Positions 4,273 to 43,477 of a stretch of 64,000 nt of DNA are shown here, piece after piece. Source of the DNA: Pseudochryseolinea flava (GTDB lineage Bacteria > Bacteroidota > Bacteroidia > Cytophagales > Cyclobacteriaceae). The notes beneath the pieces are model-generated. The model searched no databases. It worked only from the letters and a program-made list of their open reading frames with translations, and was not told where the DNA came from. The stretch covers positions 186,001-250,000 of the forward strand of contig NZ_QMFY01000001.1 of NCBI RefSeq assembly GCF_003286915.1. Reading direction: 5' to 3'. The stretch's first letter is position 1, and each line of letters starts with the position of its first letter. A program made the translations under genes and the position numbers.

Positions 4273-5397
4273 ATGAACACCACTCCAATCTTTCATCGCA
4301 CGTTGTGGGGAAACTTGCAGTCGCGTATGGACAGTTCGTATTGGCCCACTGCCACCGATGCGTGGAAGGAAGGTCGATACCTCGATTCTTTTTTTGCCGT
4401 TCTTGATTACATCAATCCTACGCTACGGAAGACGCGTGGCAACACTACCCAAAGCGATTTCAGTATTCCGCATGGATCTGTCGTCGTGAATCTTTCTATT
4501 AAGAATGATTCCCTTTATGTACATACGCCGTTTGTCAGTACTGCCGGCGCGTTACGAGTGCCGTTGTTACGTCGCGTAGCGGAATTAAATTTTTATCCGC
4601 TCGGTCTATCGCAAATTAAGCTTGAGGGAGAAAATCTCAACTTCCATTATCAATGCACCTTGGATACGTGCGAGCCTTTTAAGATCTACTATGTGCTGAA
4701 GGAAATTTGTAAAACCGCAGACCAGTACGATGATGACTTCCGCGAGAAATTTAAGACTAAAAATTTAGTTGAGCCGAAAGTGACGCCGTGTACGCCTCAA
4801 GAAGCAGAACAAGCATGGAAGACTCTTCAAGATATTATTACAGACACGCTAAATTTTGCAAACTACTTCGACAGTCAGCGCTGGTACAATCAAACTTTTG
4901 ATATTCTGAACATCGGTTTAAAGCGGATTGATTTCGCTGTTCAGCCGCAGGGATTTCTGAAGAATGAAATCGAGCGTGTAAACGCAGAGATGGGAAATCA
5001 AAATGCAAACGTGATGGACCGCAATAAATATGCGCGTACGTTACTTGCGCAATTCCAACAACTCACGAAAGAAAAACTGGCAGAGAGTCTTTATAAGACA
5101 GAGGTCTTTGTTCCTGAAAAATGGAATTTGAATCTCGAAAGCACCCAGAAGAATTTAGAAGGGTTTGGCAACAATGCACGCAAGTATTTGAATGAGCAAA
5201 ATTATATCATGGCGGTGATGGAGTGTATGTACGCATTCTACAATTTGTACTACAGCAACTACGTCGAGAAACGCATCTCCGATGAAATCAACGCGGGCCT
5301 TGAGGCAGCATCAGGTAAATCGTGGCAAGAAGCTGCGCCTGCGCTTGTTGGTGCGCTGAATAATGTAATGAGCGGAATATTCACTGTTAAAGCCTGA
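4273..5397 (+). CDS. Uncharacterised protein, partner of the downstream protease
   Basis: I do not recognise this 374-residue protein. It has no signal peptide or membrane helix, so it should be cytosolic. Residues about 45-160 alternate predicted strands and helices (SVVVNLSIKNDSLYVHTPFV, then LLRRVAELNFYPLGLSQIKL) in a way that recalls the YbjN / type III chaperone-like fold; this is inference. The remainder is largely helical and rich in aromatic residues. The stop is 4 nt before the ATG of the trypsin-like protease at 5402, so the two are very probably co-transcribed and may act together. Confidence 0.7.
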   Translation: MNTTPIFHRTLWGNLQSRMDSSYWPTATDAWKEGRYLDSFFAVLDYINPTLRKTRGNTTQSDFSIPHGSVVVNLSIKNDSLYVHTPFVSTAGALRVPLLRRVAELNFYPLGLSQIKLEGENLNFHYQCTLDTCEPFKIYYVLKEICKTADQYDDDFREKFKTKNLVEPKVTPCTPQEAEQAWKTLQDIITDTLNFANYFDSQRWYNQTFDILNIGLKRIDFAVQPQGFLKNEIERVNAEMGNQNANVMDRNKYARTLLAQFQQLTKEKLAESLYKTEVFVPEKWNLNLESTQKNLEGFGNNARKYLNEQNYIMAVMECMYAFYNLYYSNYVEKRISDEINAGLEAASGKSWQEAAPALVGALNNVMSGIFTVKA

Positions 5398-5401
5398 TCA
5401 C

Positions 5402-6478
5402 ATGACACATAATTTTGAACCTTTTGTTTTCAAGGTAATCACTGCGTCCGGTTCAGGATCGAGCTTTTACCTGCGCGATAAAAAGATATTTGTAACCAAC
5501 TACCACGTTGTTGGACAGTTTAAGAATGTTTCTCTTCAAGATCCGACGGGATCACGTCACCTCGCGCAAGTGATCTTGGCTAACCCGTACGAGGACATTG
5601 CGTTCTTGAAAGTCGAGCAAGATTTTGAAGTACCGTCACTAAACCTGCAAATGAATCCGGTGGCGCGCGGTGAACAAGTTTACGTAGCAGGATTTCCATT
5701 TGGAATGCCCTTCACGGTTACTGAAGGTATTGTTTCTGCACCAAGTCAATTGATGAATGGAAAGAACTATGTGCAAACCGATGCTGCTGTAAATCCTGGC
5801 AACAGTGGTGGTCCTGTTTTCAATCAGCATGGCGACGTCATCGGTATCACGACATCGAAATTCACCAGTGCCGATAACATGGGTTTTGCTGTTCCAATTG
5901 CGTCACTCGTTGAAGAGTTCGATAGTCTGCCGCACCTCGTTAACAATACTTTTAATCTCGTATGTGAATCGTGCTCAGCATTGATTCAAGAGCGTTCTGC
6001 GTATTGTAACAATTGCGGACAAAACATCGACGAGAAATTATTCGATGAACCATCCTTGACCGATCTGGCGATCTTTTGTGAGCAAGCCCTTGTTGAACTC
6101 GGTGTGAATCCGGTGCTTGCACGCCAAGGTCATGAGTTCTGGGAGTTCTATCACGGTTCTTCGCTTGTGAGAATGTTCGTCTACAATCAAAGTTATTTGT
6201 ATGTAACCTCTCCGATCAATCAATTGCCAATGCAAAATATGCAAGCCTTGTTAGAGGAGATCACTTCGAAAGACGTTGAGCCTTATAAGCTAGGTATCTG
6301 GGAGAAAGAAGTGTATGTCTCGTATCGTATTCACATCACAGACATCTATGGACCACGCCATAACGAAGTGAAACAGAATATTGCTGGTCTCTATCGTAAA
6401 GCGAATGAGCTAGACGATTATCTGGCAGAGAAATTCGGCTGTAAGTTCTCCGTTCATTCTTTGAAGAATAGACAATAA
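5402..6478 (+). CDS. Cytosolic trypsin-like serine protease with zinc ribbon and C-terminal YbjN-like region
   Basis: 358 residues. An S1C (DegP-like) protease domain fills residues 1-180 with a complete triad: His35 in TNYHVVG, Asp65 in YEDIAFL and Ser135 in NPGNSGGPV. Unlike DegP/HtrA it lacks a signal peptide and a PDZ domain. It is followed by a four-cysteine zinc ribbon (Cys188, Cys191, Cys202, Cys205) and a C-terminal domain (about 220-345) whose strand-helix pattern resembles YbjN-like folds. The layout suggests an intracellular regulatory protease whose ribbon and C-terminal domain select substrates or bind the upstream partner. The protease call is firm; the role is unknown. Confidence 0.85.
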   Translation: MTHNFEPFVFKVITASGSGSSFYLRDKKIFVTNYHVVGQFKNVSLQDPTGSRHLAQVILANPYEDIAFLKVEQDFEVPSLNLQMNPVARGEQVYVAGFPFGMPFTVTEGIVSAPSQLMNGKNYVQTDAAVNPGNSGGPVFNQHGDVIGITTSKFTSADNMGFAVPIASLVEEFDSLPHLVNNTFNLVCESCSALIQERSAYCNNCGQNIDEKLFDEPSLTDLAIFCEQALVELGVNPVLARQGHEFWEFYHGSSLVRMFVYNQSYLYVTSPINQLPMQNMQALLEEITSKDVEPYKLGIWEKEVYVSYRIHITDIYGPRHNEVKQNIAGLYRKANELDDYLAEKFGCKFSVHSLKNRQ

Positions 6479-6502
6479 AAACAGACTTCCACAAAAAAAG
6501 AA

Positions 6503-6529
6503 AGCCTCCATACTACTGGAGGCTTTTTA
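6503..6529. terminator. Bidirectional intrinsic terminator
   Basis: 8-bp stem AGCCTCCA/TGGAGGCT (6503-6510 and 6517-6524) followed by a T run, and preceded by an A-rich tract that serves the opposite strand. It sits between the convergent protease and tricorn-like genes. Confidence 0.9.
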
Positions 6530-9921: not shown

Positions 9922-10296
9922 ATGAAAATTACTGCCGATAATAAATTGAAAAAGTTGATTGTTGTGGGTGACAGGGTGTTGATCAAACCCACTCAGCAGA
10001 GCGAAAAAACCGCGAGTGGCCTCTATCTACCACCTGGGGTTCAAGAGAAAGAAAAGATTCAAAGCGGATATGTGATTAAAGTCGGCCCCGGATATCCACT
10101 ACCGCTACCGGCGGATGAAGATGATGTTTGGAAAGGTAAAGAAGAGCAGGTGAAGTATCTTCCTTTACAATCGCAAGAAGGCGACCTCGCGATATTCCTA
10201 CAAAAAGGCGCGATCGAAGTAATTTATGAAAACGAAAAGTATTTCATCGTTCCACAAGCGTCGATCTTGATGTTAGAACGTGAGGAGGATTTGTAA
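9922..10296 (+). CDS. GroES-like co-chaperone family protein
   Basis: 124-residue protein with a chaperonin-10 fold: VVGDRVLIKP, then EKTASGLYLPPG in the place of the GroES mobile loop, and GYVIKVGPG. It is longer than classical GroES (about 95) because of an insertion around residues 55-80 (PLPLPADEDDVWKGKEEQ). No groEL lies beside it, so it is probably not the main GroES but a divergent paralogue of the type seen in Bacteroidota. It is followed 41 nt later by a small conserved-looking gene on the same strand. A function in assisting GroEL is inferred from family only. Confidence 0.8.
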   Translation: MKITADNKLKKLIVVGDRVLIKPTQQSEKTASGLYLPPGVQEKEKIQSGYVIKVGPGYPLPLPADEDDVWKGKEEQVKYLPLQSQEGDLAIFLQKGAIEVIYENEKYFIVPQASILMLEREEDL

Positions 10297-36217: not shown

Positions 36218-39200
36218 TTGGCGCGCTCTATACTGAAGAATCAGATTTTGCTAACATGCAGACAGCTATTAGCATTTTGCTTGTTGTTCCTATGCCTTTC
36301 CATTCAAGTCGCGGCGCAGCAACGCCAAGACTCCACACGAAATGCGCAGGACACAACGAAGAATAAACCCTATCAGCCCAGTAAGAGGCCAACTTTCCGC
36401 CCTAACGATCGCTATGGCGATCCATTCTCCAATACACAAACTGAGTCGCCGCTTTTTCTGAAAGATCCCAATCAGATGAAGCTCGATGTTGAGATCGATA
36501 CTGCCCTCAACTACACGATCTATGAAAAAATTGGCGACCTCAACTATCGCCCTACCTCGAGCATGTCGTTCGAAGAGTTTAAGCAATATCAAGACCGTCA
36601 AATACTAAAAGATTATTGGCAGAGCCGCGCGCGTGCTCAGGATGGCGAAAGCGCAGTAGCAAGCCGTGGTCTTATTCCGAAAATTTTCATTAGCCCTATA
36701 CTCGACCGCATTTTTGGTGGCAGCTATGTGGAACTCGTACCCCGTGGATTTGTGACGTTGGATTTCGGCGTCTCTTCACAGCGTGTGAACGCCCCAGGTA
36801 TGACGATACGTCAACAACGCAACACTGGTTTTGAGTTCGATCAACAAATCAACATGAGCGTGGTAGGTAAAGTCGGCGAAAAACTACAAGTCACCGCCAA
36901 CTTCGACAACAACAACTCTTTCGACTTTCAAAACAACATGAAGGTTGAATACACCGGATACAAAGAAGACATTCTGCAAAAACTTGAAATCGGTAACGTC
37001 AGTCTTCCATTGAACAATACCCTCATTCAAGGCGCACAAAATCTATTCGGTATTAAAGCAAAACTACAATTCGGTAAACTCGACGTTACAGCAATCGCAA
37101 CAACACAACGCGGAAAGACATCCTCCATCGACATCGGTGGTGGTGGCCCCGGTGGTGGTGGACAAGGAAGACCATTTGAAATCATTGCATCAAACTACGA
37201 TGACAACCGCCACTTCTTCCTCGGGCATTTCTTCCGGGATCATTACGAGCAATGGCTCAGAAATCTGCCTCAGATTTATTCGCAAGTAATCATCAATCGT
37301 GTTGAAGTATATGTGCTCAACAGAACAACTGATACACAAACGTTAAGAAACATCGTCGCTTTCACCGACCTTGGGGAATATCGTCGATTGTTCAACAACG
37401 CCATTATTGCGCAGGGACCGAAAGGAACCGGCTCATTCGCATCGAACGACAACGAATCGAATTCACTGTGGAATCTCATCAAAGATTTAGATCGCACGAA
37501 TATCGAAGCTGGTCTGCAAGGTTTGGGAATCAACATGCAAAACGAGTTCGACTATGAGAAGATTAATGGGGCACGTAAACTGTCACCGACAGAATTTACA
37601 TTCCATCCACAACTCGGTTACATAACACTGTCACGTAAACTCCAAAACGACGAAGTGCTTGCCGTCGCATACGAATACACCTACAACGGACAAGTGAGAA
37701 CAGTTGGTCAGCTTTCAGATCAGTATGGAAAACTAGACGACGAGCAGTCTATCTTCTTAAAACTTCTTCGTCCGCGCAGGCCAGCTATTCGCGACAACCA
37801 ATCACGCATCTTTCCAACTTGGGATTTGATGATGAAAAACGTGTACAGTTTGAATGTAACACAACTTTCGCGTGAAGGCTTCCAACTGAGACTTATCTAT
37901 CGCGACGATCGCACCGGTATTGACAACCCGCAGTTTCAAGATGGACCAACATCCGTACGAGAAAAGCAGTTGATAGAAATATTTGGACTCGATCGACTTA
38001 ATCCATTAAATGATCCGGGGCGCGATGGCAACTTTGACTTTGTTGAGGGCGTAACTGTTAACACGGCGACAGGCCAAATCATCTTCCCTTACCTTCATCC
38101 TTTCGGAAGTCAGAAAGATGGGCCACTGCATCGTGCTTTCTCCACTACACCAGCATTACTTCAGAAATATTCTTACGACACACTTTACAGAACCACCAAA
38201 GCGGATGCTGAATTATTTGCAACGAAAAATAAATTTTGGTTGAAGGGACTCTACAATGCAGGATCTGCTAAAGAGATTCTCGTTCCTGGATTTGGATTAT
38301 CACAAGGGTCCGTAAAACTTTTTGCTGGTGGAATTCCATTAGTCGAAGGCTCCGATTACACGGTAGATTACACCTTCGGAAAAGTTACGATCCTCAATGA
38401 GTCTATTCTCAGCTCAGGACAAAACATAGAAGTGCAATACGAACAATCAGATCCCTTTGCTTTCCAAACACGAAGCTTATTGGGAACACGCCTCGATTAC
38501 CACTTGAACGAAGATGTCAATCTCGGATCGACGTTCTTGTACTACAACGAAAGGCCGATTATTAGTCGCAACCAAATTGGAACAGAACCTGCGCGCAACA
38601 TGCAGTATGGCTTTGATTTTAACATCAACAAAAAAAGCAGATTACTCACGCGGATTGTCGACGCGATTCCGATCATTCAAACCAAAGAAGAATCCAGTGT
38701 TAACCTCACGGGTGAATTTGCGCAGCTCATCCCAGGTACATCCAACAAAGTAGATGGAGAGGGTACTGCATACATTGACGATTTCGAAACATCAGCCACG
38801 CCTTATTCTTTGATGAATCCGTCAACCTGGAAACTTTCGTCTATTCCGAAAGATTCGAAGTATGATCCATACAATGGCGCCGTTGACAATAACTTGTCTG
38901 GTGCATGGCGTGCAAAAATGGCGTGGTATCAAGTCGACAATCAATTCTATCGTGGTACAGGGCGCTTCAAGCCAGACAACATCACGGATGAAGACACGAA
39001 AAACCACTACGTGCGTGGAATCGGGCCAAAAGAAATATTTAAAGAACGTCAGCTTCCTCCGGCAGTGTACTTCGAGAATATTTTTGACATTGCGTACTAC
39101 CCAGATTTACGCGGCCCCTACAATTACGATCCACAATTTAAAACAACCGGCGCTGCCGATCTGCGATCGCATTGGGCAGGGATCACAACAGCGGTAAACA

Positions 39201-42200
39201 CCGAGGTCGACTTCGATAAAGCAAACATCGAGTACATTGAATTTTGGATGCTTAACCCATTCTTACCAGGTAAATACGGAAGAGTAATTACAGAAGGAAG
39301 AGACGTTGGGAAAAACAACGAAACCGGTGGAAAGCTTGTACTTCACTTGGGTAACGTATCAGAAGATGTTACGCGCGATGGACGACATGCATTCGAAAAT
39401 GGACTACCTCCGTCTGGTGATACCAATCAAGCTGTTCAAACACAATGGGGATATACGCCAGGCACAAGCTATCTCAATAATGCGTTTGATAACAATGCTT
39501 CGAATCGACCTAATCAAGATGTTGGCTTGGATGGTATGTCTGATGGCATTGAAAAATCTGCTTCGAGTCCTATTCCAACAGAACTGAAAAACCTTGAAGA
39601 TCCTTCAAGCGACAACTTCCGATATTTCTTAGACTCTTACTACGATGGGCGGAATGCACAAATCCTCGAACGCTATCGTGACTTTAACGGACATGATGGA
39701 AATACCCCAGTAATTACCGGAAGCGATCTTTTTACGCCTGCCGGAAGCACGATTCCAGACAACGAAGATTTAAACGCCGACAACACTTTAAGCACCTCTG
39801 AAGGGTACTATCAATACACCGTCAACTTAAAACCTGCCGACATGGTTGTAGGTCGTGGATACATTGTAGACAAAGCAGATCATACCGATGAGGCCACTGG
39901 CGAAACAGTGCGCTGGTTCTTATTCCGAATTCCGGTTCGTACACCTCCGTATGAGACCGTTGGAAATATCGAAGGCTTCAAATCCATTAAGTATTTACGA
40001 ATGATCGCGACTGAATTTAGTGATCCAGTCGTTATGCGTATGGCGAACTTCCGGATGGTAGGAAGTCGCTGGAGAAAATATACAGGAACGTTACGTGAAG
40101 ACGGTGTATCGAACACAACCGACTTTAGCAACATTACCGTTTCTGTGGTGAGCTTGGAAGAGAACGTTGCAGGCAGCGAAACAAAATCTCCTTATCGTGT
40201 TCCGCCAGGCATCAACCGTGATCGTGATCAAACGGCAGCGAACTCAAGACTGCTGAACGAGCAATCGATTCAAGCATGCGTTGAAGATCTTGAAGACGGC
40301 GATGCACGTGCTATCTACAAAAACCTTTCCGTGGATCTTTTCAACTATGGTCGTGTTAAGATGTTCTTGCATGCCCACAGTCAAAATACTGAAGACGGCG
40401 AGGTCAGCGCATTCTTAAGAATGGGGACGGACTTTGATCAGAACTACTACGAAATTGAGATCCCTTTGAAAGTCACAAGTCCTGCTTCATTCGAAGGCAT
40501 GACCGACCGCGATGTTTGGCCAGAAGAAAACGAAATAGATTTAGCATTGAGCGAACTTTATCAACTCAAAGCCGAACGTGATAAAAATAACTTCACACTT
40601 TCAGAACCTTACCCAGCCGGTGGACGCGTGATCGGCAAACACAAAATACGCATCTTCGGTAGACCTGATCTTACGAGTGTTCAAGTGTTAATGATCGGGA
40701 TCCGTAACCTTGAATCAAGCGATAAGAAATCACACTCCCTCTGTATTTGGGCAAACGAATTACGCGCAACTGATTTTAACAGAACCGCTGGATGGGCCGT
40801 AAGTTCTACGTTAAGTGCTAAACTTGCCGACTTCGCTACGGTTAACGGCGCAATCAGACATACATCATTTGGATTTGGTGGTGTAAGCTCGAAAATTTTT
40901 GAGCGCACACGTTTCGAAACTACCGCTTATGATGTTTCTGCCACGGTTAATCTTGATAAACTTATTCCTGGAAATACAGGAATTAAAGTACCGATGTTCT
41001 TGGGATACCAACGCGAAACCATCACGCCACTTTACGACCCTGCCAATCCTGACATGAAATTAAGTGATGCGCTGGAAGGTTTTGACTCGGAGGCCAAGCG
41101 TGAGAACTATTTGAAAATCGTGCGAGATCAACTTACAACGCGAAGTATAAACTTTGTGAATGTTCGAAAAGTCAAATTAAATCCAGAATCAAAAGTTCGT
41201 CTTTGGGATATCGAAAACTGGGCTTTCAGTTATTCTTACAGCGATCGCATTCGAACAAACTTCAATACGGCAGAAGATTTTCAACAATCGCACAAAGGTT
41301 CTGTTGCCTATACGTTCAGTCCGAAAGAGACAGGCATCGAACCATTCAAAGATTCTAAATCACTTTCTTCTCCATGGATAAAAGTGATTAAGGATTTTAA
41401 CGTAAGCTTTTTACCGAGCAACATTTCGGTCCGTTACGATCTCGATCGTTCATTTGGACGACTTGTGTATCGAAATTCTTCTGGTGACGGAACCTTCGTG
41501 ACATCGGCACCAAACTTCTTAAAGTATTTTACTTTCAATCGCACGTATAGCTTGCGTTGGAATCTTTCCAAAAATTTATCCTTCGAATACAGCTCACGCG
41601 CGAATGCCGTTATTGACGAACCTGACGGTGAACTTGACTCCCAAGAAAAGCGAGACAGCGTAATGCATAACCTTAAAAAGTTTGGTCGTATGAAAAATTT
41701 CGACCAGAGCGTTACCGTGAACTACACACTGCCGCTGGATAAAATACCCGTAACGGACTGGGTAGGCGCAGACTATCGTTATCAAGTAAATTACAATTGG
41801 AAAGCAGGGCCGGTAAATAAGCCAGACAGTCCAAACAAAGATCCATTCGACCTTGAACTCAATGATGCGTACGACTTCAAGAATACCATTCAGAACAGTC
41901 GCGAGCAGAGCTATACGGGGAAACTCGACATGGTTAAGCTTTACAACAAGATAAAATTCTTAAAGGACATCAATACACCGAAGAAGCAAAAGGCACCAAC
42001 AAGGCCAACCACACAACGAACGCAACCTGTCAGGGCACAACAGCCGGATACACTGAAGACTAACACCACACGAGAAACGCCACCGTTGGCAAGAGGTTTT
42101 TTCAGAACGCTAATGTCATTGAGATCGATCAATGGAACCTATACGTTGAATGAAGGAACTATACTTCCTGGGTTTACGGAGACGCCCAAGTTCATGGGAA

Positions 42201-43477
42201 TGGACGGCAACTGGTCATCGCCAGGGTGGAGCTTTGTATTGGGAAGTCAAAATCCGAACATCAGAAAAGAAGCTGGAGAGAAAGGTTGGCTCACCACCAA
42301 CAGTAACCTTACGATTCCATTCCAGCAAGTAAAAAACCAAGTGATTAATATTCGCGCGAATGTAGAGCCATCGGCAGATTTCAAAATCCAAGTAGATTTC
42401 AGAAAAGAAAAAGCAGCGATGTATCAGGAAATTTACCGCAACATCGATACCACAGGCGCCGTTAATTTCGAGTCTCAAAATCCAGGGCGAAGTGGAAGCT
42501 ATAAAATATCTGTACTGACAATTAACACGGCTTTCAATTCGTCTAATGGGAAAGTTGACTCTGATGTCTTCCGGGAATTTGAGCAAAACCTCACCGTTAT
42601 TCAACGCCGGTTTTTAACAAACATTTACACGGGATCAAATGAAGAAGAAGTTTCAACCACATCACAAGATGTTTTGATTCCGGCTTTCATTGCCGCCTAT
42701 ACGGGCAAAGATGCAAATAAGGTATCACTCTCTCCGTTCCCAAACATGCCCATGCCAAATTGGCGAATTGATTACACGGGCTTAAACAAAGCAGCATTCT
42801 TCAAAGATATGTTTCAGTCGATCACGTTGTCGAATGGATATCAAAGCACGTATAGCGTAATGAATTATTCAAATTCACTTACAACCCAAGCTCCAGTAGA
42901 AAATCTTGAGCTTGATCGATCCATTGAAAGTTATAACTCAACCTACTTTGGAAATGTTGTTGATGGTAACTTGCAAGCAGCTTACGTCATTAGTCAAGTT
43001 GTTATTTCTGAACAATTCTCGCCGCTGATCGGTATTAACATCCGTACGAAAGGACGGTTATCAGCAAACTTCCAATACAAAACGAAACGTGATCTGGCGT
43101 TGAATATTTCCAATGCTCAAATCACGGAACTCTCGAACAAAGATGTTGTCCTTGAGCTTGGGTACACGAAGAATAATATGCGTCTACCATTCAAGTCGCA
43201 GGGGCGCACGATCGTGTTGAAGAACGACGTCACTTTCAGAATGAACTTTACGATTTCTGACAGCAAGACCATTCAACGTAGAATCAACGAGCTGGCTGTT
43301 ATCACAAATGGAAACATCAATATTCAGCTTCGACCAAACATTACTTACGTGGTGAACCAAAAATTAAATGTGCAGGCATATTTCGAACGAAATGTAAATG
43401 AACCGCAAATATCGAGTTCACCTAGACGGGCCAATACCCGATTCGGTATACAAATCCGATTTAGTCTCGCACAGTAG
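36218..43477 (+). CDS. sprA: Type IX secretion / gliding motility protein SprA
   Basis: 2419 residues, the size expected for SprA, the very large outer-membrane beta-barrel that forms the translocon of the type IX secretion system and is needed for gliding. Signal peptide in the first ~34 residues (ends QVAAQQ). SprA features: an N-terminal region with LVPRGFVTLDFGVSSQRVNAPG, a Gly-rich loop near residue 310 (GGGGPGGGG), and repeated strand patterns to the C-terminus (FGIQIRFSLAQ). No in-frame ATG exists between the upstream stop (36173) and the signal peptide core, so initiation must be at TTG (36218, or a later TTG near 36248). Flanked by ruvA and gcvH. Confidence 0.95.
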   Translation: MARSILKNQILLTCRQLLAFCLLFLCLSIQVAAQQRQDSTRNAQDTTKNKPYQPSKRPTFRPNDRYGDPFSNTQTESPLFLKDPNQMKLDVEIDTALNYTIYEKIGDLNYRPTSSMSFEEFKQYQDRQILKDYWQSRARAQDGESAVASRGLIPKIFISPILDRIFGGSYVELVPRGFVTLDFGVSSQRVNAPGMTIRQQRNTGFEFDQQINMSVVGKVGEKLQVTANFDNNNSFDFQNNMKVEYTGYKEDILQKLEIGNVSLPLNNTLIQGAQNLFGIKAKLQFGKLDVTAIATTQRGKTSSIDIGGGGPGGGGQGRPFEIIASNYDDNRHFFLGHFFRDHYEQWLRNLPQIYSQVIINRVEVYVLNRTTDTQTLRNIVAFTDLGEYRRLFNNAIIAQGPKGTGSFASNDNESNSLWNLIKDLDRTNIEAGLQGLGINMQNEFDYEKINGARKLSPTEFTFHPQLGYITLSRKLQNDEVLAVAYEYTYNGQVRTVGQLSDQYGKLDDEQSIFLKLLRPRRPAIRDNQSRIFPTWDLMMKNVYSLNVTQLSREGFQLRLIYRDDRTGIDNPQFQDGPTSVREKQLIEIFGLDRLNPLNDPGRDGNFDFVEGVTVNTATGQIIFPYLHPFGSQKDGPLHRAFSTTPALLQKYSYDTLYRTTKADAELFATKNKFWLKGLYNAGSAKEILVPGFGLSQGSVKLFAGGIPLVEGSDYTVDYTFGKVTILNESILSSGQNIEVQYEQSDPFAFQTRSLLGTRLDYHLNEDVNLGSTFLYYNERPIISRNQIGTEPARNMQYGFDFNINKKSRLLTRIVDAIPIIQTKEESSVNLTGEFAQLIPGTSNKVDGEGTAYIDDFETSATPYSLMNPSTWKLSSIPKDSKYDPYNGAVDNNLSGAWRAKMAWYQVDNQFYRGTGRFKPDNITDEDTKNHYVRGIGPKEIFKERQLPPAVYFENIFDIAYYPDLRGPYNYDPQFKTTGAADLRSHWAGITTAVNTEVDFDKANIEYIEFWMLNPFLPGKYGRVITEGRDVGKNNETGGKLVLHLGNVSEDVTRDGRHAFENGLPPSGDTNQAVQTQWGYTPGTSYLNNAFDNNASNRPNQDVGLDGMSDGIEKSASSPIPTELKNLEDPSSDNFRYFLDSYYDGRNAQILERYRDFNGHDGNTPVITGSDLFTPAGSTIPDNEDLNADNTLSTSEGYYQYTVNLKPADMVVGRGYIVDKADHTDEATGETVRWFLFRIPVRTPPYETVGNIEGFKSIKYLRMIATEFSDPVVMRMANFRMVGSRWRKYTGTLREDGVSNTTDFSNITVSVVSLEENVAGSETKSPYRVPPGINRDRDQTAANSRLLNEQSIQACVEDLEDGDARAIYKNLSVDLFNYGRVKMFLHAHSQNTEDGEVSAFLRMGTDFDQNYYEIEIPLKVTSPASFEGMTDRDVWPEENEIDLALSELYQLKAERDKNNFTLSEPYPAGGRVIGKHKIRIFGRPDLTSVQVLMIGIRNLESSDKKSHSLCIWANELRATDFNRTAGWAVSSTLSAKLADFATVNGAIRHTSFGFGGVSSKIFERTRFETTAYDVSATVNLDKLIPGNTGIKVPMFLGYQRETITPLYDPANPDMKLSDALEGFDSEAKRENYLKIVRDQLTTRSINFVNVRKVKLNPESKVRLWDIENWAFSYSYSDRIRTNFNTAEDFQQSHKGSVAYTFSPKETGIEPFKDSKSLSSPWIKVIKDFNVSFLPSNISVRYDLDRSFGRLVYRNSSGDGTFVTSAPNFLKYFTFNRTYSLRWNLSKNLSFEYSSRANAVIDEPDGELDSQEKRDSVMHNLKKFGRMKNFDQSVTVNYTLPLDKIPVTDWVGADYRYQVNYNWKAGPVNKPDSPNKDPFDLELNDAYDFKNTIQNSREQSYTGKLDMVKLYNKIKFLKDINTPKKQKAPTRPTTQRTQPVRAQQPDTLKTNTTRETPPLARGFFRTLMSLRSINGTYTLNEGTILPGFTETPKFMGMDGNWSSPGWSFVLGSQNPNIRKEAGEKGWLTTNSNLTIPFQQVKNQVINIRANVEPSADFKIQVDFRKEKAAMYQEIYRNIDTTGAVNFESQNPGRSGSYKISVLTINTAFNSSNGKVDSDVFREFEQNLTVIQRRFLTNIYTGSNEEEVSTTSQDVLIPAFIAAYTGKDANKVSLSPFPNMPMPNWRIDYTGLNKAAFFKDMFQSITLSNGYQSTYSVMNYSNSLTTQAPVENLELDRSIESYNSTYFGNVVDGNLQAAYVISQVVISEQFSPLIGINIRTKGRLSANFQYKTKRDLALNISNAQITELSNKDVVLELGYTKNNMRLPFKSQGRTIVLKNDVTFRMNFTISDSKTIQRRINELAVITNGNINIQLRPNITYVVNQKLNVQAYFERNVNEPQISSSPRRANTRFGIQIRFSLAQ

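Follow-up and report, generated by a model that had tools for sequence, protein, structure and literature searches.

What does a trypsin-like protease do when it has no signal peptide by hydropathy, no match to a PDZ domain, and a partner protein encoded directly upstream? Such a gene pair lies in the genome of Pseudochryseolinea flava, within a 64,000-nucleotide stretch of contig NZ_QMFY01000001.1 (hereafter, the window). An earlier note, made from the sequence alone, had read the two genes as a dedicated unit, a candidate for an undescribed system, that might act as a proteolytic switch, stress sensor, or defense module. We examined the two proteins, their inheritance, and their surroundings.

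An HtrA-type protease and its upstream neighbor

The two ORFs are arranged as the earlier note had drawn them, on the same strand with A 5′ of B and a gap of 4 nt. ORF A (4273–5397, + strand), defined by the ORF list, its homologs upstream of other B genes, and an AlphaFold2 model, encodes a 374-residue partner protein with an N-terminal chaperone-like domain and a C-terminal all-helical domain. ORF B (5402–6478, + strand), defined by Pfam and an AlphaFold2 model, encodes a 358-residue trypsin-like protease with a four-cysteine ribbon and a chaperone-like C-terminal domain. A terminator-like hairpin, a consensus match only with no strand assigned (6501–6526), lies between B and the convergent downstream gene. 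Its 10-pair stem was found on the − strand, a T-rich tail also stands on the + strand by reading of the sequence, and five such sites were found against 2.7 expected in shuffles. The neighbors of the pair in the window look ordinary. By reading of the translations, the pair is flanked by a thioredoxin-like gene and, on the opposite side, by a gene for a large tricorn-like peptidase; a gene of the RmuC family (1281–2630, Pfam) is also near the pair.

B is an HtrA/Deg-type protease of the trypsin fold with an intact catalytic triad. Pfam Trypsin_2 matched the window protein at E 1.2e-28 (101 bits; cut-off, 27.6). In the AlphaFold2 model (pLDDT 91.3, pTM 0.88), the protease domain occupies residues 1–174 (5402–5923, + strand), as judged from triad conservation and comparison with Deg9; the model aligned with Deg9 (5il9) at Z 24.9 and an rmsd of 2.0 over 182 residues, and DegP, DegS, and HtrA1 matched as well. 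The solved chains nearest to B are HtrA and DegP-like. NCBIfam HtrA models also matched B, all below their cut-offs (best, TIGR02037, with 133.5 bits against 416.2). The triad, His35 (codon 5504–5506), Asp65 (5594–5596), and Ser135 (5804–5806), all on the + strand, was complete in the window protein, and across 27 B sequences, from 25 genomes and two named records, His35 and Asp65 were present in every one and Ser135 in 26.

Residues 188–205 (5963–6016, + strand) form the four-cysteine ribbon (CX2C-X10-CX2C), delimited by cysteine conservation. Cys188, Cys191, Cys202, and Cys205 were found in all 27 sequences, and in the first 13 aligned sequences, including that of the window, the three triad residues and the four cysteines were all invariant. 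Zinc-ribbon Pfam models matched the window protein below cut-off, and the ribbon would bind a metal, presumably zinc. The note's further observations on B also stood: none of the 15 Pfam families matching the window protein at E up to 1 was a PDZ family, and hydropathy gave no signal peptide (within the first 45 residues, the Kyte-Doolittle mean over 19 residues peaked at 0.63). B looks cytosolic.

The exception to triad conservation is the B protein of genome G496 (L256, 5675–6775, − strand), whose catalytic Ser is replaced by Gly within an altered motif. It keeps the ribbon and the four invariant residues of the chaperone-like domain, and the A gene of this genome lies on another contig. A second B protein, from G142, retains the Ser within a changed motif and likewise keeps the ribbon and the four residues; it, too, is unlinked from its A. 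The Ser-less protein indicates that one lineage, at the least, can do without cutting, and this one sequence suggests that an A-B complex may have a use without cutting.

A chaperone-like domain common to both proteins

A carries the fold of type III secretion (T3SS) chaperones and YbjN proteins (TY-chaperone fold) at residues 34–163 (4372–4761, + strand), as found by structure comparison and profile matches. The AlphaFold2 model of A had pLDDT 88.9 and pTM 0.82, and the fold comparison found in it the TY-superfamily succession of a helix, three strands, a second helix, two strands, and a long helix. VIA-align placed residues 34–163 at Z 12.1 to each of three solved proteins, namely ExsC (3kxy; rmsd 3.7, 124 aligned), SpcU (4akx; rmsd 2.7, 117 aligned), and Tll0839 (2plg; rmsd 3.4, 130 aligned), and at Z 9 to 10 to YbjN and AmyR. 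The best Foldseek E-value for A was 1.2e-3, so that the Foldseek score taken alone gives modest support for the fold. A likeness to Arp2/3 belonged to a weaker tier (Z about 6; 6.2) and was set aside.

In the family libraries, the A protein of the window had no Pfam match above cut-off and no NCBIfam match, and no NCBIfam family was common to more than one of 26 A proteins. Its TY-Chap1 (PF22551) match, at E 0.05, reached 13.7 bits for the whole protein and 16.5 bits for the domain against a gathering cut-off of 27. Among A domains, 18 of 25 matched TY-Chap1 at E up to 5 (best, 2.7e-7).

The earlier note had seen a YbjN-like domain at the C-terminus of B and a segment of similar strand-helix pattern in A, and profile comparison bore out this likeness. 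In hhalign, B 211–358 matched A 22–165 with a probability of 98.35% (E 1.1e-14), whereas the control comparison of the B C-terminal domain with the helical part of A gave 0.4%; alignments of the whole proteins matched at 96.1% (E 3.4e-9). Both domain profiles independently picked Tll0839 (2plg; E 2.2e-6 for B and 6.4e-6 for A). Of 25 B domains, 6 reached Pfam YbjN at E up to 5, the strongest at 2.8e-4, and the B domain of the window was not among them. In the full-length model, the C-terminal domain of B has the TY-chaperone element order, in agreement with the profile matches. A and B thus carry sister copies of a TY-chaperone domain, that of B being assigned by profile and model element order. 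The copy in B (residues 213–346; 6038–6439, + strand) is paralogous to that in A and, by hhalign, profile match, and model, stands in the place of a PDZ domain.

In YbjN proteins, conservation falls mainly on core residues and on the dimer interface, formed by helix 2 and the loop after it, which is the most conserved region (PMC5398634). In the A domain, helix 3, at 2.93 bits, and helix 2, at 2.79, clearly exceeded the domain mean of 2.30, which puts helix 2 among its most conserved elements. Helix 2 was the most conserved element in the B domain by a small margin (2.72 bits; mean, 2.46), and since conservation in B is spread over the whole domain, a helix-2 dimer face can be proposed there only weakly. 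Glu227, Arg241, Trp247, and Pro276 in this part of B were present in all 27 sequences. The conservation pattern is consistent with dimerization through helix 2, more clearly in A than in B.

The rest of A, residues 175–372 (4795–5388, + strand), is an all-helical domain according to the secondary structure of the full-length model. A profile search of this domain against solved structures (profile A8) returned no clear match, the sole PDB hit at E up to 1 standing at 0.49. Fold matches of this part, such as 6bfi at Z 5.7, were rejected because a helical bundle calls for stronger scores. The mean column identity of the helical part (36%) was the lowest of the three aligned parts, the other two having 44 and 48%.

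Co-inheritance and distribution of the pair

The earlier note had called the pair dedicated, and the genome surveys upheld this as more than coincidence: the pair recurs across Bacteroidota. The class survey gave 13 B relatives with a match reaching into the C-terminal domain (L003–L015), and in 12 of them an A homolog immediately precedes B; the exception, L015, belongs to G142, which has its A on another contig. The surveys of class, phylum, and relatives together found A in 25 different genomes, and B was present in all 25. The two genes are adjacent in 22 of these; they lie about 18 kb apart in G347 and on different contigs in G496 and G142. Counted as adjacent are G321, whose A is divided between the ends of two contigs, and G590, whose A is truncated where its contig stops. 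The genes are also neighbors in two named records, one from Aquimarina megaterium (L035) and one a Saprospiraceae metagenome-assembled genome (L036). In all 24 adjacent pairs A precedes B on one strand. The gap, computed with start codons taken mechanically, is at most 21 nt in 20 of the 24, overlaps included, and 49, 65, 66, and 326 nt in the others. By the comparisons above, the partner matches no well-known unrelated family, and the two genes are conserved as neighbors; neither finding that the note had named as refuting its reading was made.

Co-occurrence was complete among 295 genomes of the class, in which the genomes with B, those with a trypsin-fused chaperone domain, and those with A were the same 14 (Fisher's exact test, P = 3e-24, assuming independent genomes, which genomes are not). 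The A and B trees agree as well, with a distance correlation of r = 0.90 over 26 pairs, three unlinked ones included, against 0.59 for the best of 2000 shuffles, in a comparison made without a species-tree control. The genome searches scored a limited number of candidates per genome, and an A or B may have been missed. The A of L011 was missed by phmmer at E 0.01 and found by blastp at 5.6e-7. A contig scan with a generic trypsin motif is no census, and its matches are a lower bound.

Used alone as a query, the chaperone-like domain of B matched 37 of the 295 class genomes and was fused to trypsin in 14. The other 23, which have no A, showed YbjN-like domain matches only in short open frames of 134–223 aa (for example, G044:C25:49586-50008 and G158:C9:283101-283505). 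These frames are possibly stand-alone relatives of the fused domain.

The survey for A covered Bacteroidota, within which the distribution is patchy. The class survey turned up A in 14 of 295 genomes and the survey of relatives in 3 of 59 (the window's own genome included); among the latter, six other genomes of the same genus gave no A. In the phylum survey 18 of 395 genomes matched, and A was clearly present in 14; weak partial matches in G400, G624, G628, and G560 were left uncounted. The nearest relatives of the window pair belong to another family. The pair clusters with L003, L035, L239, and L240 in a long-branched group, and the A proteins of this group do not have the last part of the longer A type. 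The patchy distribution, with A found in none of the six same-genus genomes, suggests horizontal spread and makes transfer likely. The GC content of A (44.0%) and B (43.7%) equals that of the window (43.7%), which neither supports nor excludes a recent transfer.

A mobile-element or phage origin was considered and dropped, as tblastn with A found no match in 50,697 phage records or in 72,556 plasmid records. When viral contigs were compared with the B alignment, none of the best 80 of 170 matches ran past residue 218, and none of these therefore covers the chaperone-like domain. We also looked for a clean empty site in the same-genus genomes. The downstream peptidase gene is kept in all six, at 70–74% identity. 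The window genes on the other side of the pair were not found in the six stretches, so no insertion boundary can be drawn, and the empty site was likewise given up.

Across 34 stretches, and counting ORF families present in at least three loci, no third gene accompanies the pair generally; outside A and B, the most widespread family occurs at four loci. The neighborhood survey that the note had proposed thus showed the pair to be conserved, with nothing else generally traveling along. Smaller recurrences were seen. Related divergent genes lie directly upstream of A in L033 (6295–7410), L231 (7101–8216), and L235 (7125–8576); another three-locus family counts among its members the gene lying divergently upstream in L029 and L234; and a 451-aa ORF, oriented like A, immediately precedes it in L030 (11025–12380) and L031 (11539–12894), from two genomes of one genus (G235 and G048).

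Possible roles and relation to known systems

Client binding and the control of activity fall to PDZ domains in canonical HtrA enzymes. The HtrA/Deg proteases (DegP, DegS, Deg9, HtrA1) share with B the protease fold and the His-Asp-Ser triad and carry one or more PDZ domains at the C-terminus, where B has the chaperone-like domain instead. B further differs in its hydropathy, which predicts no signal peptide, its sub-cut-off scores against the NCBIfam HtrA models, its ribbon, and its co-inherited partner. The chaperone fold in the place of PDZ, the sister domain in A, and the helix-2 conservation together favor an A-B heterodimer. We give about even chances to a reading in which A and B form a cytosolic protease and the two chaperone domains, as a heterodimer, bind its clients and perhaps gate its activity. 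A and B would be two subunits of one regulated enzyme. In B, the PDZ recognition domain would be replaced by a metal-binding ribbon and a peptide-binding domain of the T3SS-chaperone/YbjN type, and A would contribute the paralogous copy of the chaperone domain together with the all-helical part. The chaperone domains would most likely pair via the helix-2 face, as YbjN dimers do, and form a composite groove capturing an extended or misfolded client. The captured client might then be brought to the protease of B or unlock it, and the helical domain of A may set the choice of client or the location. The gene pair, its co-inheritance, the domain assignments, and the conserved triad and ribbon are observations, from which the complex, the heterodimer, the delivery of clients, the zinc, and the cytosolic location are inferred. 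A bolder version sees here a PDZ-free cytosolic class of HtrA-like enzymes that recognize clients through an obligate T3SS-chaperone-like heterodimer, spread horizontally among Bacteroidota, turned at least once into a protease-dead chaperone complex, and possibly serve as a phage- or damage-triggered switch; taken whole, it is on the doubtful side.

Co-occurrence and the A-before-B order would suit a relationship in which A is an inhibitor or substrate of B, locking the protease until a signal arrives or being cut to free a helical effector. The paralogous domains could make a pseudo-homodimer lock, and the helical part of A is the least conserved of the three parts aligned. A matches no effector family, which is compatible with this account, but the window protein has no membrane segment by hydropathy (best 19-residue mean, 1.35), and the genome with the Ser-less B keeps its A, unexpected under cut-to-activate. 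We consider this account unlikely. Ordinary neighbors, and the intact ribbon and chaperone residues of the Ser-less B, would fit a quality-control protease for one cytosolic client family, with A as a client-loading chaperone that is active also without proteolysis; the patchy presence of the pair argues against a core function, and we hold this to be the least probable of the readings.

An anti-phage role, with recognition of a phage protein by A (or by the chaperone pair) releasing B to attack proteins of the host or the phage, would suit the patchy distribution and the nearest relatives in another family. Trypsin-like proteases and TY-chaperones also both occur in predicted conflict systems, according to PMC7159879 and PMC9503650, respectively. 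Among 139 flanking proteins, 12 PADLOC 2.0.0 families matched at E 1e-10 or better, including AbiU and PD-T4-2_B, whereas 41 further proteins of the window gave none. For the flanking set, at most three ORFs per side were taken, and L034, L230, L241–L245, ORFs under 90 aa, and one L024 ORF overlapping B were left out; the control, small and from one genome, omits A, B, three flanking proteins, and a 2,419-aa ORF, and two of its proteins (9922 and 10938) are also in the flanking set. Eleven of the 12 families matched one protein each and one matched two; one of them is the window's own RmuC, the others being tallied irrespective of locus. The commonest Pfam families among the flanking proteins (the first 25 listed of 220) are ordinary, and no effector gene recurs generally beside the pair. 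Four A proteins tried gave no PADLOC match, and three B proteins matched mainly via the trypsin part (best for the window B, RT-Protease_XI at 5.7e-20); no PADLOC 2.0.0 system had models matching A and B over their full length. With A also unmatched in phage and plasmid records, a defense role appears quite unlikely. What stands of the earlier interpretation is a dedicated pair, a cytosolic-looking S1 protease, and a common chaperone-like fold, while the switch, the stress sensor, and the defense module found no backing in ordinary flanking families, few and nearly all single PADLOC matches, and an A without phage or plasmid matches.

Each half of the pair has clear precedent. The YbjN and T3SS class I chaperones (AmyR, DR1245, Tll0839, ExsC, SpcU, SycN-YscB) have the fold found in A 34–163 and, by profile, in B 213–346, and SycN-YscB (1xkp) is a precedent for a heterodimeric chaperone. 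Among the matches listed, the solved chaperone chains are single-domain proteins of about 106–154 residues without a protease fusion, unlike B. For AmyR, the authors of PMC5398634 infer that it acts through protein-protein interaction and not as an enzyme. PMC9503650 describes TY-Chap proteins in ARG-centric conflict systems; TY-Chap1/2/3 of these systems belong to the same superfamily as the domain of A, which in the window protein falls below the TY-Chap1 cut-off. A word search of that paper's main text found no "trypsin" or "protease" and a single "peptidase," in a phage passage of no bearing here. The Trypco1/Trypco2 systems likewise join a trypsin-like peptidase to a co-occurring neighbor protein, and trypsin-Trypco pairs occur in MoxR-vWA systems (both PMC7159879). 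A had no Trypco match in Pfam at E up to 1. The Pfam library used here presumably holds the Trypco1 and Trypco2 models. The MoxR-vWA systems may differ in that no general third gene accompanies A-B in the 34 stretches, with 25 of 220 neighbor Pfam families listed. Among the matches listed, the literature searched contained no description of the A-B pair or of its domain combination, and the scanned libraries gave no match naming the pair, in line with the note's view of it as a candidate for an undescribed system.

If the heterodimer-guided protease is the true reading, secretion-chaperone folds can take over from PDZ domains in directing the HtrA protease module, and the YbjN/TY-chaperone superfamily, whose functions are mostly unclear, gains a concrete, testable job, that of feeding a protease or gating it. 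Being small and well predicted, the pair lends itself directly to such tests.

Some other genes of the window deserve mention. The RmuC gene carries the PADLOC label RTasRmuC of a DRT system. A Cpn10 (GroES-like) gene of 124 aa (9922–10296) lies next to the conserved 1086-aa peptidase gene, with no GroEL-like ORF noticed directly beside it, and this arrangement recurs in all three same-genus stretches long enough to include it (L267, L270, and L271). The 2,419-aa ORF is at 36218–43477.
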